From the NCBI GenBank assembly GCA_902597675.1, contig CACJYR010000005.1:1-64000 (forward strand): 64,000 nt of DNA. Direction: 5' to 3'. The stretch is from an uncultured Pelagibacteraceae bacterium (GTDB lineage Bacteria > Pseudomonadota > Alphaproteobacteria > Pelagibacterales > Pelagibacteraceae). Of the stretch, positions 40,541 through 48,462 are shown in pieces. The position numbers and the translations under genes are program-made. The first letter of the stretch is position 1, and each line of letters begins with the position of its first letter. The notes under the pieces were generated by a model. The model was not told where the DNA came from and did not search any database. It saw nothing but the letters and a program-made list of their open reading frames with translations.

Positions 40541-41428
40541 TTAAGTATTATTATTTATAAATTCAGATATATAATTTCTTAAAGATATTTTTCCATAATG
40601 TTTATAAATTTTGTTAGTTAAATTCATTTTAGTAAGAGCTGAAGCATATCTTTCCCCAGGTCTTTTATCTAAATATTTTATTTTGGAATTGAACATTTTA
40701 GCAACCTCTATTATCGAGTAAGACTTTTTACTCGTTATACTATAGTGTCTACAACAATTCTTTTTCCACGCATTGTAACAAACTTCTACAGTATCATCGA
40801 TGTGAGTAAACCTTCTTGTTTGTGTACCTGGCTTGACAATTGTTAAAGGTTTTTTTTTTATAAATTGATCTTCAAATATTCCTATTACAGTCGACATTGG
40901 GCCTGTAGATATCTGGTTGGGTCCATAAACGTTGTAAAAATAAATAATTTCATACTTAAAATTGAACCACCTTTTTAAGTTTTCTAACAACTCTAAATTT
41001 TTTGCTTTTGTGAAAGAATAAGGTGATAAATTTTTATCTTGTCCTTTATTCCCTAAAGATGCAGAGGTTGCTGAATAGATTAGTTTTATTTTATGCTTTA
41101 AGCAAAAATTAAAAACTGCATTTGTACCTATTGAGTTTGAGTATATACAATCATTCATTCTTAAAAAGCTTTGATAAATTCTCGCAAATTCACCAAAATG
41201 AAAAATAGATTTAATTTGTTTTGGGTATTTAATTAATTTAAAAATATTTGCAGTGCTACCTTTGATATATTTTACTCGGGGATTTCGAATATGATTAGAT
41301 TTTTTTCCAGATGTATAATTATCTAAACTTAAAATTTCATATTGTGTCTTTTTCAAAAGTAGTTTGATTAAATTCGTTCCAACAAAACCAGCTCCACCAG
41401 TGATAAGAATTTTTTTATTTTTCTTCAT
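40541..41428 (-). CDS. NAD-dependent epimerase/dehydratase (extended SDR)
   Basis: ILITGGAGFVGTNLIKLLL; YSFTK active site. Confidence 0.88.
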   Translation of the reverse strand: MKKNKKILITGGAGFVGTNLIKLLLKKTQYEILSLDNYTSGKKSNHIRNPRVKYIKGSTANIFKLIKYPKQIKSIFHFGEFARIYQSFLRMNDCIYSNSIGTNAVFNFCLKHKIKLIYSATSASLGNKGQDKNLSPYSFTKAKNLELLENLKRWFNFKYEIIYFYNVYGPNQISTGPMSTVIGIFEDQFIKKKPLTIVKPGTQTRRFTHIDDTVEVCYNAWKKNCCRHYSITSKKSYSIIEVAKMFNSKIKYLDKRPGERYASALTKMNLTNKIYKHYGKISLRNYISEFINNNT

Positions 41429-41458
41429 TACTAATTCGAATATAACAGATTTAACAAA

Positions 41459-42295
41459 TTAATTTAATGTTGGTCTATACCATGATTTTTTTAATAAAAC
41501 AGAATTAATAATACCCAAAAGTCTATGCTTATGTATTTCACTTTTGTATTTCTTAAAAAAAATGGAGTAAAAAACAAACTTTAATAATGATGAAAAAAAT
41601 TTCGGTAAAATTTTAATTAGAGCAATTATATAACCATTGTGTTTTTTATTAAAATAAAATGTTGACCACATCCAATGCCAGTTTCTAGACAACTCCATAG
41701 GTCTGTTTAATTCTGGCATATGTGAAGAGCCCCCAAAATGTCTTACTTTTATGGAAGGATCGATAAATATCTTTATATTCTTCAAACGCAACCTTTTACA
41801 TAAATCTATTTCCTCCAAATAAAGAAAAAAATTGTCATCAAAAAAATTACACCCTTTCAAATTTTTCATATGAAAAAACATTGCAAAACCTTTAACATAT
41901 TCAACTTCTTTTATGTCTAAGTCCTTAATGGCGTCAAAATTATCGTATCTTTCATCAACAGAAACTGGTGCTAAAATTCCAAAATCTAAGATTTGATTTG
42001 CTGTTACAAAAAAATTTTTAATACAATTTTTCTCTAAAACTACATCCGGATTTAAAATCAGAGCAAAATCAGTTTTTACCTTAGATAATGCAAGATTATT
42101 TCCACCTGAATAACCTAAATTTTCTGTCGGTAAAATGCAACTAACATTAGGATATTTTTGTTCTAAATCTAATTTTAGAATTTGATCCATTGAATTTTCA
42201 ATAATTATTATTGGAAACTTCTCATCTATTGATTTTATACATCTATGAAGTATGTCTCCACTTTTGAATGAAACAATTACAATTGTTAGGTCCAT
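41459..42295 (-). CDS. Glycosyltransferase family 2
   Basis: LTIVIVSFKSGDILHRCIKSI, NLGYSGGNNLALSKVKTDFALILNPDVVL. Confidence 0.9.
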   Translation of the reverse strand: MDLTIVIVSFKSGDILHRCIKSIDEKFPIIIIENSMDQILKLDLEQKYPNVSCILPTENLGYSGGNNLALSKVKTDFALILNPDVVLEKNCIKNFFVTANQILDFGILAPVSVDERYDNFDAIKDLDIKEVEYVKGFAMFFHMKNLKGCNFFDDNFFLYLEEIDLCKRLRLKNIKIFIDPSIKVRHFGGSSHMPELNRPMELSRNWHWMWSTFYFNKKHNGYIIALIKILPKFFSSLLKFVFYSIFFKKYKSEIHKHRLLGIINSVLLKKSWYRPTLN

Positions 42296-42349
42296 TTAAG
42301 ATATTTAATATATTGTTACAGTTTTGAAAATACTATAGTTGTATCTTAT

Positions 42350-43387
42350 ATGAAAAAAAGAGTTTTAATTACTGGAGGAGCAGGTTTTATTGCCCATCAC
42401 ACTATCAAGCATATCCTAAATAATACTGATTGGGAAATCGTCTCCTTAGATAGGTTAGACTACTCAGGAAATTTAAATCGAATATCAGATATGATGACTG
42501 AAATTTCTGAGAAAGATAAAAAACGACTAAGAGTTGTTCATCATGATCTTCGAGCAGAGGTAAATGATATGTTGGCAGCTGATTTAGGAAAATTTAATTT
42601 CATTTTACACATGGCTGCATCTAGTCATGTTGATAGATCAATTACTGATCCTTTGACATTTGTATATGATAATGTAGTTGCAACCTGCAACATATTAAAT
42701 TTTGCAAAGAAAACTAAAAATTTAGAGCTATTTGTATATTTTAGTACTGATGAAGTTTTTGGTCCAGCACCAAATAAAGTTAAATATAAAGAAAGAGAAA
42801 GATACAATTCTACTAATCCTTATAGTGCAACTAAAGCGGGTGGTGAAGAATTGGCAGTGGCTTTTGAAAATAGTTATCATATGCCAATTTTCATAACACA
42901 TACAATGAACGTATTTGGTGAAAGACAACATCCTGAAAAATTTATTCCAAAATGTATCATTAGTGCAAGAGATGGTTTGAATGTAGAAATTCATAGTAAT
43001 AAAAATAAAACTAAAGCTGGGAGCAGGCATTATATTCATGCATCAGATGTAGCAGATGGATGTTTGTTCTTGATTAAAAATCGTAAAAAAATAATTAAAA
43101 AAAATAAAATAGATTATGGTGGAGCGAAATGTCCAAAATTTAATTTGGTAGGTCCTATAGAATTAGATAATCTCGAACTAGCAAAATTAATCGCAAAGTC
43201 TGTTGGCAAAAAATTAAAATATAAAATGGTTGATTTTCATTCAAGTAGACCTGGTCATGATCTAAGATATGCTTTAGATGGTAATTTAATGAAAAAATTG
43301 GGATGGAAACCAAAAGTCTCCATAGAAGAAAGAATAGATCAAGTAGTTAACTGGACTTTAAAAAATAAAAGATGGTTAAAAATTTAA
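42350..43387 (+). CDS. NAD-dependent epimerase/dehydratase, dTDP-glucose 4,6-dehydratase-like
   Basis: VLITGGAGFIAHHTIKHIL, STDEVFGPAP, YSATK. Confidence 0.88.
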   Translation: MKKRVLITGGAGFIAHHTIKHILNNTDWEIVSLDRLDYSGNLNRISDMMTEISEKDKKRLRVVHHDLRAEVNDMLAADLGKFNFILHMAASSHVDRSITDPLTFVYDNVVATCNILNFAKKTKNLELFVYFSTDEVFGPAPNKVKYKERERYNSTNPYSATKAGGEELAVAFENSYHMPIFITHTMNVFGERQHPEKFIPKCIISARDGLNVEIHSNKNKTKAGSRHYIHASDVADGCLFLIKNRKKIIKKNKIDYGGAKCPKFNLVGPIELDNLELAKLIAKSVGKKLKYKMVDFHSSRPGHDLRYALDGNLMKKLGWKPKVSIEERIDQVVNWTLKNKRWLKI

Positions 43388-43393
43388 CTCAAA

Positions 43394-43470
43394 TGGTAGC
43401 GGGAAGTGGGATCGAACCACTGACCTCGGGCTTATGAGTCCCGCGCTCTAACCAACTGAGCTACCCCGCC
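43394..43470 (-). tRNA. tRNA-Met (anticodon CAT), CCA encoded
   Basis: GGCGGGGTAGCTCAGTTGGTTAGAGCGCGGGACTCATAAGCCCGAGGTCAGTGGTTCGATCCCACTTCCCGCTACCA, 77 nt cloverleaf by eye. Confidence 0.92.
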
Positions 43471-43562: not shown

Positions 43563-43769
43563 TTAAAAAATTATTAAACCAAATAAAATCAACCCTGTAG
43601 AAGCAGCTGCTGAAAAATACAATTTTTTTCTGTTTTCATTTTTTTTATTAACTGCAATTCTGTTCAGAAGCACGTTTATGTTGCTACTTTTTGATTGAGT
43701 TGATGGTGGATCTTTTTCAAGGTATCTAGCTATAAGCTTTTCTTTAACGTTAATACCTGAATTTTTCAT
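43563..43769 (-). CDS. Small protein with C-terminal TM helix
   Basis: 68 aa: MKNSGINVKEKLIARYLEKD...KKNENRKKLYFSAAASTGLILFGLIIF. Confidence 0.55.
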   Translation of the reverse strand: MKNSGINVKEKLIARYLEKDPPSTQSKSSNINVLLNRIAVNKKNENRKKLYFSAAASTGLILFGLIIF

Positions 43770-43809: not shown

Positions 43810-44031
43810 TTAGAAAGAAAGATAAATTCCAAAGGACCCCACACCAATTATCAGCAACGATAAAATGAAAATATTTTTTTTGAGTTCCTTTGCTTCTGTT
43901 TCCTCTAGCTTTGACTATAGAATATTTATATCAACTCTCTTCTTTAATGTTTTTAAAGGCTTTTCAGCAACATCAACATCATTTGGGGTCTCGATGCTAG
44001 TATTTGTCTCTGCAAAGCCTTTATTATTCAT
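43810..44031 (-). pseudogene. Amber-interrupted small membrane protein, apparent paralogue of 43563..43769
   Basis: Minus frame: MNNKGFAETNTSIETPNDVDVAEKPLKTLKKRVDINIL-(TAG at 43915-43917)-SKLEETEAKELKKNIFILSLLIIGVGSFGIYLSF-TAA. Confidence 0.5.
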
Positions 44032-44076
44032 GAGAGAATTAGTACATCAAAATATCAGTCGAACAATTTTCCTGAA

Positions 44077-44123
44077 GTTCAATTTGGGTCACTATTAGAT
44101 TGACATGTGTTCAATTTGGGTCA
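44077..44123 (+). repeat. 15-bp perfect direct repeat GTTCAATTTGGGTCA (44077-44091, 44109-44123)
   Basis: Two identical copies, 32 bp start to start, upstream of the 44145 CDS. Confidence 0.9.
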
Positions 44124-44128
44124 ATATT
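44100..44128 (+). promoter_or_regulatory. Putative sigma-70-like promoter overlapping the repeat
   Basis: TTGACA (44100-44105), 17 bp, AATATT (44123-44128); start codon at 44145. Confidence 0.45.
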
Positions 44129-44144
44129 CTCGAATTCAAATTTT

Positions 44145-45125
44145 ATGAGTTTAGAACAAATCGATTTCAGTAAAACCTTAACCGACGATCAGGTTTATGA
44201 AAGTATAATGAATAACTACTCTGAATTAGCTAATGAATGGATATCACATCAGTGGAATTGGATGAACAATGTGTACTGGGCTTTTAATGATCACTACAAA
44301 TACATGATTATAATTTCACTAATAGAAAAAACACTGCAATTTTATGATCAGATGAATGTTCAACAATCGTATGAAGAATATTATTCTAAATCATATGTTC
44401 AAATAGATAAGTTTAGTATTACTGAATTATGTGAGAAATTAGATCTACCAAAAGAAACGATAAGAAGAAAAGTTTTAGAACTTGAGAAAGCAGGTGTTAT
44501 TAAAAGAGATAAAAAAAAGATTATAATTGACGGTAAAGCATTTTCTTTTGTTAAACCTCAAAATCAAATTAAACTTTCATCAAAATATATCTATTTAGTG
44601 GCTGAAGCTTTATATAGAGATAAGCACTTTTCAAAAAAAATTGATGTGAAGACAATAGAAAGTTTAATCAAAAAAAAATTTACATTATGTTGGCGGTGGT
44701 TTTATCGAATGCAAATACCATTAATAATTGGATATCACAAATTCATGCAAGACCTGAGCACGTTTCATGTTTGGGGAACCATTTGTATGAACCAATCATT
44801 AAATGTAACAAAAAATTTAAAAAATTCAGAGACAAAAAAATTACCATTAGATTATGGTGCGGCTAATAAAATGCTAATTGATAATGTTGGCTCAGTTTCA
44901 GGTATAAGCGCAATGTCAATTTCTGATATGACATTAATACCAAGAGCTACTGTAATAAGAAAATGTAAATATTTAATGAAAGACGATTTAATTAAACTTA
45001 ATGAAAAAAAACAATACGTTTTATCCTCATTCAATTTTAAGAAAATTTTACCTTACCAAACTGAAGCTTTTAAGTTTAAAGCTAAATTTATACGTAAAGT
45101 TCTAAATCTTCTTGTAATTTCATAA
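44145..45125 (+). CDS. Putative HTH-containing DNA-binding/regulatory protein (ORF track start 44100; downstream ATG preferred)
   Basis: FSITELCEKLDLPKETIRRKVLELEKAGVIKRDKKKIII winged-HTH-like; second similar segment ISAMSISDMTLIPRATVIRKCKYLMKDDLIKL. Confidence 0.65.
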   Translation: MSLEQIDFSKTLTDDQVYESIMNNYSELANEWISHQWNWMNNVYWAFNDHYKYMIIISLIEKTLQFYDQMNVQQSYEEYYSKSYVQIDKFSITELCEKLDLPKETIRRKVLELEKAGVIKRDKKKIIIDGKAFSFVKPQNQIKLSSKYIYLVAEALYRDKHFSKKIDVKTIESLIKKKFTLCWRWFYRMQIPLIIGYHKFMQDLSTFHVWGTICMNQSLNVTKNLKNSETKKLPLDYGAANKMLIDNVGSVSGISAMSISDMTLIPRATVIRKCKYLMKDDLIKLNEKKQYVLSSFNFKKILPYQTEAFKFKAKFIRKVLNLLVIS

Positions 45126-45169: not shown

Positions 45170-46021
45170 ATGGAGATAGTAACAAAAATAGCACCTATCA
45201 TACTCGCATTAATAATGTTGGGTTTAGGTTTGGGATTAAAGATTGATGATTTTACGAGAATATTAAAAACTCCAAAGGATTTTTTTGTAGGTTTTTTTTC
45301 TCAATTAATTATTCTTCCATTAGTTGCTTACTTATTAATTATTATTTTTAAAGTACCACCTGAAATAGCAATTGGAGTTATGATTATCGCTGCTGCACCA
45401 GGCGGAGTAACATCTAATATATTAACAAAATTTGCTAACGGAGATGTTGCTTTATCTATTTCTTTAACAGCTGTAATCAGTTTAATTTCTATTATTACTG
45501 TTCCTCTTATAATTTTTACATCTGCTGATTTATTTGGAATTACTGATATTTCTCAAAATATTTCAATGACTGGTATAGCGCTAAAAATGTTTTTGGTTGT
45601 AACTGTTCCGGTGATCTTAGGGATGATTATTAGAAAATTTGCTGAAAATTTTGTAAATTCGAAAATTCAAATATTTGAAAAACTCAACATAATATTATTT
45701 GTTATTTTTTTTATAGCTGCGTTTTATGAAGAAAGAGATAGTTTTATAGATTTTCTAATGCAAGCAGGTTTCATTACTTTTATTCTAAATTTGACAATGA
45801 TGATTGTGGCTTATTACCTTGGTAAAAGTTTTGCCTCAGGAATAAAACAACAAAAATGTATTGCTTTAGAATGTGGATTACAAAATGGTACTTTAGCAAT
45901 ATTTGTTTCTACACAAATATTCGGTACAGATATAGTCTACATAACTCCAACAGCTGCATATGCTTTGATTATGTACATCACTGGTTTTATATTTGTTTTT
46001 CTTTTAAAAAATAAAGTTTAA
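45170..46021 (+). CDS. Bile acid:sodium symporter (BASS) family transporter
   Basis: MIIAAAPGGVTSNILTKFANGDVALSISLTAV, LECGLQNGTLAI. Confidence 0.92.
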   Translation: MEIVTKIAPIILALIMLGLGLGLKIDDFTRILKTPKDFFVGFFSQLIILPLVAYLLIIIFKVPPEIAIGVMIIAAAPGGVTSNILTKFANGDVALSISLTAVISLISIITVPLIIFTSADLFGITDISQNISMTGIALKMFLVVTVPVILGMIIRKFAENFVNSKIQIFEKLNIILFVIFFIAAFYEERDSFIDFLMQAGFITFILNLTMMIVAYYLGKSFASGIKQQKCIALECGLQNGTLAIFVSTQIFGTDIVYITPTAAYALIMYITGFIFVFLLKNKV

Positions 46022-48462
46022 TTTGTCTTAAAATTGGTCTGTTTTATTGGTTTATTAATCAATTCAATTTCGTATTTCCTTTTCTCAACCTCGATAAATA
46101 ATTTACTATCTCTCAATTTTTCATTGGAAAAATCGTTTTTGATGTAACCAAAAGTCAGATTTTTCTTAAAGTTAAAAGAGTAATTTCCTGAAGTTGATCT
46201 ACCTATTATCTTATCTTCTAAATAAATAGGCTCATCATGAAGTAATAGTGGTTCTCCTGGTTTACTATCTTTTAATGTAAACATAGCAAATCTTTTTTTG
46301 ATCTTCTCATTATTAATTTTTTCAAGAGCTGACTTACCAATAAAATCTACATTTTTTTTATTACTGATTGTAAAAGATAAACCTGCTTGATATTGATTTT
46401 CCTCAGGTGAAATATCGTGTCCCCAATGTAGAAAGCCACTCTCCATTCGCATAATATCCATTGCGTGCATACCACAATTTGAAAGATTAAAATTTTTACC
46501 TTTTTCTATAATTAATTCATAAATTTTTTTCGCATCATTAGCTTCAACGTAAAGTTCATATCCTAACTCCCCAACATAAGACAATCTCTGTGTCCAAATT
46601 TTAATATCCTCGATTGAAATAAATTTTGCTGTTCCAAATTTGAAATATTCATTATCAAAATTATCTTTACTTAATGAACTTAAAAGATTTCTGCTTTTGG
46701 GTCCAAATAAACCAAAAACACAATAATCATCAGTTACATCTTTCAATTTAATATCTTTATTTAGATGTTTTTTGATGTGGTGCTTGTCTCTTTCTCTTGT
46801 TGCGGCAGAACTAATTATTCTAAAATGGTTTTCATCTATCGCCACTATAGTTAAATCAGTCTCAATACCTCCATCTGAATTTAACATATGAGTATAGGTG
46901 CATTTACCAACATCTTTCTTAATATTTGCAGTACAAATTCTTTGTAATTCTTGATGGGCTTTATCAGATTTAATTTCAAACTTTGAAAAGGGAGTTAGAT
47001 CAAATAGACCAACATTTTTTATTGTATTACTTGTTTCATACTCAGCTGAGGGATACCAACTTTGATAGTTATAACTATATTCATACTCTGCCTTTTCACC
47101 ATCTAGTGCAAACCACATGGGTCTTTCATATCCACCAGATACACCGAAACAGGCTCCAAAACTTTTCAAATTATCATGATGTGGAAGTTTTTTTATATCT
47201 CGAGAAGTTTTGTGTTGTTTAAAGGGCCAATGCATTCCATACAAATCTCCTAATGATTCTGTAATTCTTTTTTTGATAAAACCTAGTTCAGAATGAAACT
47301 TTTGAAATCTTTTTATATCGTAACTAAAAATATCTTCATTAATATGACCAGTCATCAACCACTCTGCTGTAACTTTACCAACGCCACCGCCACTGCCAAT
47401 CCCAATACTATTTAACCCGCAACATACAAAAAAATTTTTAATTTCAGGCACTTCTCCTAATAAAGTATTGGTATCAGGAGTAAAAGACTCTGGACCTGAA
47501 AAAAATTTTCTTATTCCAGCAGTTTCTAAAATTGGAAATCTTTTAATTGCTGAAGCTAAATAGGGTTCAAAATGTTCAAAATTTTCTTGAAACTCACCAA
47601 AGGAAAAATCTTCTGGAACTTTATTAGTATTATTCCAAGCAGGAATTGAATTTCCTTCAAAAATTCCAACGAGTATTTTTCCTGCATCTTCTTTTATATA
47701 TGTTCGATTATCAAAATCTCTTACCACTGGTAAAGTTTTAGATAAATTTTCAATTGGTTCAGTAATGATGTAAAAATGTTCTGCAGGATATAACGGAATA
47801 CTGACACCGGCTTTTTCTCCTATTTGCCTAGACCACATACCTGAGGCTAAAACAATATATTCACATTCAATTTTTTGCCCTTTAACTTTAACTCCAGAAA
47901 TTTTTCCATCTTTCGTTAAAATTTCCTCGACCGGTGACTTTTCAAAAATTTGTGCACCCTCCATTCTTGCTGCTTTAGCCAACATATGTGTAACACCCGA
48001 AGGATCTGCAGCACCATCGCCTGGCATTAAAATTCCTCCTATGACATCATCGGTATTGATTATGGAGTAGTCTTTTTTAATTTGATCTTTATCTAAAATT
48101 CTTACATCAACATCATAAAGTTGTGCTGTCGTTGCTTGTCTTTGAAGTTCTTGCCATCTGCCTTTATGTTGAGCGATTGAAAGTGCTCCGTTTAATCTTA
48201 ACCCTGCAGAATGATCAACTTTTTTTTCAAGTTCTTTGTATAAATCTAAAGTATATTTTCTAATTTTTGTGACTGCTGCAGTAGGACCCAACTGACTTAC
48301 TAAGCCTGCTGCATGCCAAGTTGTTCCTGACGTTAATTGATCTCTTTCTAAAAGGATTGTGTCTTTCCAACCAAATTTAGCTAAATGATAAGCAACAGAG
48401 CAACCTACTACCCCACCTCCTATCACAACAACTTTTGTGCTACTTGGAAGTTTTTTTTCCAT
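46018..48462 (-). CDS. FAD-dependent oxidoreductase with GcvT-like folate domain (dimethylglycine/sarcosine dehydrogenase family)
   Basis: VVVIGGGVVGCSVAYHLAKFGW, SGTTWHAAGLVSQLG; C-terminal GcvT-like region YVGELGYELYVEANDAKKIYE. Confidence 0.9.
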   Translation of the reverse strand: MEKKLPSSTKVVVIGGGVVGCSVAYHLAKFGWKDTILLERDQLTSGTTWHAAGLVSQLGPTAAVTKIRKYTLDLYKELEKKVDHSAGLRLNGALSIAQHKGRWQELQRQATTAQLYDVDVRILDKDQIKKDYSIINTDDVIGGILMPGDGAADPSGVTHMLAKAARMEGAQIFEKSPVEEILTKDGKISGVKVKGQKIECEYIVLASGMWSRQIGEKAGVSIPLYPAEHFYIITEPIENLSKTLPVVRDFDNRTYIKEDAGKILVGIFEGNSIPAWNNTNKVPEDFSFGEFQENFEHFEPYLASAIKRFPILETAGIRKFFSGPESFTPDTNTLLGEVPEIKNFFVCCGLNSIGIGSGGGVGKVTAEWLMTGHINEDIFSYDIKRFQKFHSELGFIKKRITESLGDLYGMHWPFKQHKTSRDIKKLPHHDNLKSFGACFGVSGGYERPMWFALDGEKAEYEYSYNYQSWYPSAEYETSNTIKNVGLFDLTPFSKFEIKSDKAHQELQRICTANIKKDVGKCTYTHMLNSDGGIETDLTIVAIDENHFRIISSAATRERDKHHIKKHLNKDIKLKDVTDDYCVFGLFGPKSRNLLSSLSKDNFDNEYFKFGTAKFISIEDIKIWTQRLSYVGELGYELYVEANDAKKIYELIIEKGKNFNLSNCGMHAMDIMRMESGFLHWGHDISPEENQYQAGLSFTISNKKNVDFIGKSALEKINNEKIKKRFAMFTLKDSKPGEPLLLHDEPIYLEDKIIGRSTSGNYSFNFKKNLTFGYIKNDFSNEKLRDSKLFIEVEKRKYEIELINKPIKQTNFKTN

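Follow-up and report, generated by a model that had tools for sequence, protein, structure and literature searches.

The 64,000-nt stretch from an uncultured Pelagibacteraceae bacterium analysed here (contig CACJYR010000005.1; hereafter the window) carries two copies of a 15-bp site, GTTCAATTTGGGTCA, which we call O1 and O2. They lie between a gene for a tandem winged helix-turn-helix (wHTH) protein, the regulator gene, and small1, a divergent gene for a small single-transmembrane protein (Table 1). Judged by its preservation across SAR11 genomes, the O1/O2 pair is a genuine, deeply conserved regulatory element. We propose, with a probability of about 70%, that both sites are bound by the regulator, which would repress its own promoter via O2 and control small1 via O1.

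An earlier note on this DNA had described a perfect 15-bp direct repeat with its copies 32 bp apart, the second filling the spacer between TTGACA and AATATT, ahead of a gene with a winged-HTH-like product. All of this holds at the positions listed in Table 1, and Pfam assigns HTH_24 to the product (E 1.6e-5, above the cut-off). The start-to-start distance of 32 bp corresponds to about three helical turns, and when lengthened to 20 nt the two copies still agree at 19/20 positions (44077-44096 and 44109-44128). AATATT at 44123-44128 leaves a spacer of 17 from TTGACA; an alternative -10, TATTCT at 44125-44130, leaves 19. An inverted repeat formed by ATTGAC and GTCAAT, also reported in that note, is present in the window but was discarded because relatives do not keep it: their O2 usually ends in GGGTTT or GGGTCT. 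An Rfam scan for known RNA elements returned a tRNA and one sub-threshold chance match, and nothing else.

The near identity of the two copies in the window is what a functionless recent tandem duplication or a chance repeat would produce, but the probability of such an origin is negligible. O1 and O2 form the sole exact non-overlapping 15-mer repeat at most 60 bp apart in the window, repeats of this kind with at least 5 G/C appeared in none of 200 simulations (first-order Markov, 64 kb each), and the sites are kept in many genomes where the surrounding bases diverge, a conservation that already refutes this explanation. The genome itself holds only two exact copies of GTTCAATTTGGGTCA, namely O1 and O2.

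Our sample comprised 250 genomes from the genus. Both GTYCAWWWTGGGTYW-like sites are present in all 80 named orthologous loci (Pelagibacteraceae), at a spacing of exactly 32 bp in 79 of them, and a conserved TTGACA sits between the sites in the orthologous promoters. A genome-wide search with a loose pattern that allowed spacings of 24-34 bp recovered 79 pairs in 78 of the 250 genomes, and 78 pairs have a spacing of exactly 32 bp; the reversed pattern, used as a control, had no match in the 250 genomes. All 65 pair matches whose coordinates were compared with those of the regulator lie 19-61 bp 5' of the regulator gene on the same strand, and the genomes of the other 14, which fell outside that comparison, all carry the gene. 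The regulator gene is thus found in 78/78 pair-bearing genomes versus 179/250 overall, a contrast that is only indicative as the genomes are related. A column profile built from 57 non-redundant promoters reads, in order, a GTTCAWWNTGGGTCA-like O1, a less conserved stretch, an invariant TTGACA, three variable bases, a GTYCAWWTTGGGTYT-like O2 and a -10-like block. Site columns reach 2.7 bits, and information falls to near zero farther out except in a CAATTT block, probably a part of the divergent promoter. The pair is locus-specific and is kept upstream of homologues down to about 30% protein identity, which settles the question of conservation in relatives that the earlier note had raised. The operator reading of the pair is well supported by this conservation, and binding to it is predicted.

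The arrangement around the small gene indicates what the sites may control. small1 is transcribed leftwards from 44031, away from O1, and most loci place its ATG at 44-46 bp from that site. The encoded protein varies at its N-terminus, carries a conserved segment of VDIN type and has a single hydrophobic stretch, which is C-terminal (mean of the best 19-residue Kyte-Doolittle values, 2.4). In one clade with a rearranged gene order, which we call convergent, a BASS-like transporter gene is the divergent neighbour of the regulator gene, and the small gene is found downstream of the latter in convergent orientation. There the pair is mostly missing from the regulator promoter, and a site is retained 44-48 bp before the small-gene ATG, accompanied in some cases by a second, weaker copy about 31 bp farther out from the small gene. 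The site therefore follows the small gene and is probably not merely autoregulatory. Over both layouts together, O1 stands 44-46 bp from the small-gene ATG in 118/127 loci (scan range 40-51), and these 127 loci in two layouts argue more strongly than any other observation for the small gene as the constant predicted target of the site.

The earlier note had read the repeat as an autoregulatory operator pair. As an element conserved and specific to this locus the pair stands, with the regulator as its predicted binder, but that description is incomplete, since the pair would also serve the divergent small1. Autoregulation alone, with small1 a bystander, would fit a pair that straddles the regulator's own -35 and whose paired form is seen nowhere else; we nevertheless consider it improbable, as in the changed gene order the site stays with the small gene and has mostly gone from the regulator promoter. 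One further genome (G020, locus L159) has a small1 homologue with an operator-like upstream site, GCTCAAAATGAGTT, and no regulator gene was found in it; this genome is 55% complete, so that loss of the regulator cannot be claimed.

The protein itself appears suited to such sites. Two segments in the recognition helices, KExxRRK and PRxTxxRK, hold most of the invariant residues of a 30-member alignment. The AlphaFold2 model (mean predicted local distance difference test score 87) consists of two modules, each made of three helices, a wHTH and a long helix, and profile comparison of the two halves with hhalign indicates that they are homologous (probability 98.6%, E 9e-15). A module of helices and a wHTH is present in duplicate within the regulator, so that the chain is a pseudo-dimer. 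The site core is YCAWWWTGR, in which CAWWWTG is approximately palindromic and the outer bases are unequal; a fused pseudo-dimer would suit such an imperfect palindrome. Where recognition helix 1 starts with S and not with P, most loci have A in place of G at operator column 10, a suggestive covariation. A different regulator might read both sites and control both genes, the adjacency of regulator and sites being circumstantial. We regard this as unlikely: the pair occurs in regulator-bearing genomes only and they hold no other pair locus, the pseudo-symmetry of the protein matches that of the site, and operator and helix covary.

In the mechanism we propose, each pseudo-palindromic site would be read by both homologous wHTH halves of one chain, and two regulator molecules would be neighbours on a single DNA face. 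As O2 lies within the -35/-10 spacer of the regulator promoter, its occupancy should obstruct RNA polymerase there and would result in negative autoregulation. With O1 occupied, small1 would probably be switched on by the same complex; the effect is more likely positive because O1 is just upstream of the small1 -35 region, in an activator-like position. More speculatively, the small1 membrane protein might exert feedback on either the regulator or the adjacent transporter. Alternatively, the regulator could be a plain repressor of both divergent promoters acting through a shared operator, a possibility to which we give the minority share. Two helically phased sites across both promoter regions could allow cooperative repression, and O2 is in a repressor position. 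O1, on the other hand, lies outside the small1 core promoter, and the convergent clade strictly keeps this upstream position alone.

Several points weigh against the proposal that the regulator represses itself and activates small1. We infer the signs of regulation at both promoters from site position only, and both the binding of the regulator to O1 and O2 and its effects on expression are predictions from sequence. The centre of O1 is near -50 of the presumed start of small1, which is not a textbook class I or class II position, and the small1 promoter hexamers are weak. Transcripts of both genes are predicted to have almost no leader. Clade membership confounds the covariation of helix and operator, to which there are also exceptions. 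The convergent clade has a degraded O2 or none, and the pair is therefore not essential everywhere. Finally, small1 of the window is broken by an in-frame TAG at a codon that encodes lysine in a relative of 95% identity (L010); this may be either real decay or an assembly error. A TGA also occurs within the small1 homologue of another genome (G002), and the 80 named loci all appeared intact.

A genome-wide regulon, which the earlier note had hoped for, was not found. Exact single-site matches number 60, in 41/61 genomes. The check covered 17 stretches. A recurrent extra site, GTCCAATTTGGGTTT or GTCCAATATGGGTTT, was discarded because the six copies examined are coding sequence (IGPIWVW) of an EamA-like transporter. 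Other matches are coding or sporadic, and no enrichment of the single motif was detected in the organism's own genome.

Comparison with known systems places the regulator apart from described families. For the whole protein, no significant match was obtained among solved structures (Foldseek against PDB) or viral structures (BFVD); a PDB profile search gave a best E of 0.0086 covering one wHTH, and the Pfam families MarR_2 and Phage_rep_O stayed below their cut-offs. The best Foldseek match in PDB, not significant, was SarS (1p4x, E 0.067, TM-score 0.17), a protein of the SarA/MarR superfamily from Staphylococcus aureus in which two homologous wHTH halves replace a dimer (PMC10715151). The regulator resembles SarS in having two homologous winged-helix halves per chain, according to the AlphaFold2 model and the half-to-half profile match. 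It differs in that the two share no sequence family, the wHTHs have other helical surroundings and the regulator is SAR11-specific. Membership of a SarS-like or MarR/SarA family is unsupported by any significant full-length sequence or fold match, and we regard SarS as an architectural analogue.

Plasmid and phage replication initiators (O-like, RepA-like) likewise combine DNA binding by a wHTH with repeated sites near their own gene, and PHROG 678 (replication initiation O-like) is matched by 24/30 regulator members, in the window protein over residues 57-128 only. The regulator locus differs in being chromosomal and in having two promoter sites and no origin array. Membership of the replication initiators (phage O or Rep) is unsupported, for want of a full-length family match and given the conserved chromosomal neighbours. 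No regulator homologue was found in phage records or IMG/VR, a search that did not extend to a plasmid collection; with no significant BFVD fold match either, a phage origin was also rejected.

Autoregulated divergent regulator/target loci are a general bacterial layout, with a short shared intergenic region, shared operators and a repressor-type site on the regulator promoter. The present locus conforms in that shared operators between the divergent regulator and small1 are conserved, and its regulatory logic is classical. It departs from the layout in that the target is a tiny single-transmembrane protein, the regulator is a fused pseudo-dimer, and one SAR11 clade has separated the site from the regulator's own promoter. 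We found no description of the regulator family, its operator or the small membrane target in the libraries and open-licence papers searched.

The SAR11 lineage is known for very few transcription factors. In it, a conserved regulator whose operator is precisely predicted and which has a local target dedicated to it would make an unusually clean, testable circuit. The tandem-wHTH protein and the small transmembrane protein, both of families so far unannotated, also gain a functional link. One could go further, and we do so with considerable doubt, to suppose that this SAR11-specific family of fused pseudo-dimers, with one site per chain, has essentially one target, the tiny single-transmembrane gene sharing its promoter region, whose product could tether the regulator to the membrane or titrate it there. 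If true, this would be a minimal membrane-sensing switch.

Table 1. Coordinates, strand and basis of the features discussed, numbered from the first base of the window.
Feature	Position	Strand	Basis or remark
O1 operator site, GTTCAATTTGGGTCA	44077..44091	+	5' of regulator-gene -35; 45 bp from small1 ATG
O2 operator site, GTTCAATTTGGGTCA	44109..44123	+	within -35/-10 spacer of regulator gene
Regulator-promoter -35, TTGACA	44100..44105	+	same in 57/57 non-redundant relatives
Regulator-promoter -10 region	44123..44130	+	hexamer either AATATT or TATTCT (uncertain), spacer 17-19
Regulator gene, 326 aa, tandem wHTH protein	44145..45125	+	
First wHTH, residues 88-129, invariant KExxRRK	44406..44531	+	Pfam, alignment, model
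Second wHTH, about residues 253-293, invariant PRxTxxRK	44901..45023	+	alignment, model, half-to-half profile match
small1, divergent small single-transmembrane protein gene, ~72-76 aa in relatives	43816..44031	-	in-frame TAG at codon 39 (43917-43915) in window
Putative small1 promoter	44038..44066	-	TTGTTC 44066-44061, ACTAAT 44043-44038, spacer 17; weak match; conserved CAATTT block
small2, second small transmembrane protein gene	43563..43769	-	same strand, 3' of small1; resembles small1 by eye
tRNA gene	43397-43470	-	CAT anticodon read by eye
BASS-type sodium symporter-like gene	45170-46021	+	
Dimethylglycine dehydrogenase-like gene	46018-48462	-	

The BASS-type and dimethylglycine dehydrogenase-like genes adjoin the regulator in all layouts seen, whether downstream, convergent or divergent, and this persistent adjacency suggests a functional link of the regulator with both. 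In one genome (G007), on two contigs (L154, 344-358, and L155), an operator-like site, GTCCATATTGGGTCA or GTCCATAATGGGTCT, precedes the ATG of the BASS gene by about 13 bp. Together with the adjacency this suggests a link to the BASS transporter; a good site occurs 5' of the BASS gene in that genome only, and we rejected this gene as a general operator target. On the other side, small2 begins about 45 bp downstream of small1 and has a NIN-L segment like that of small1; the two may share an operon. Beyond small2, the tRNA gene stands between the small genes and a series of genes for sugar epimerases and glycosyltransferases (about 40541-43387) that resembles the border of a variable island.
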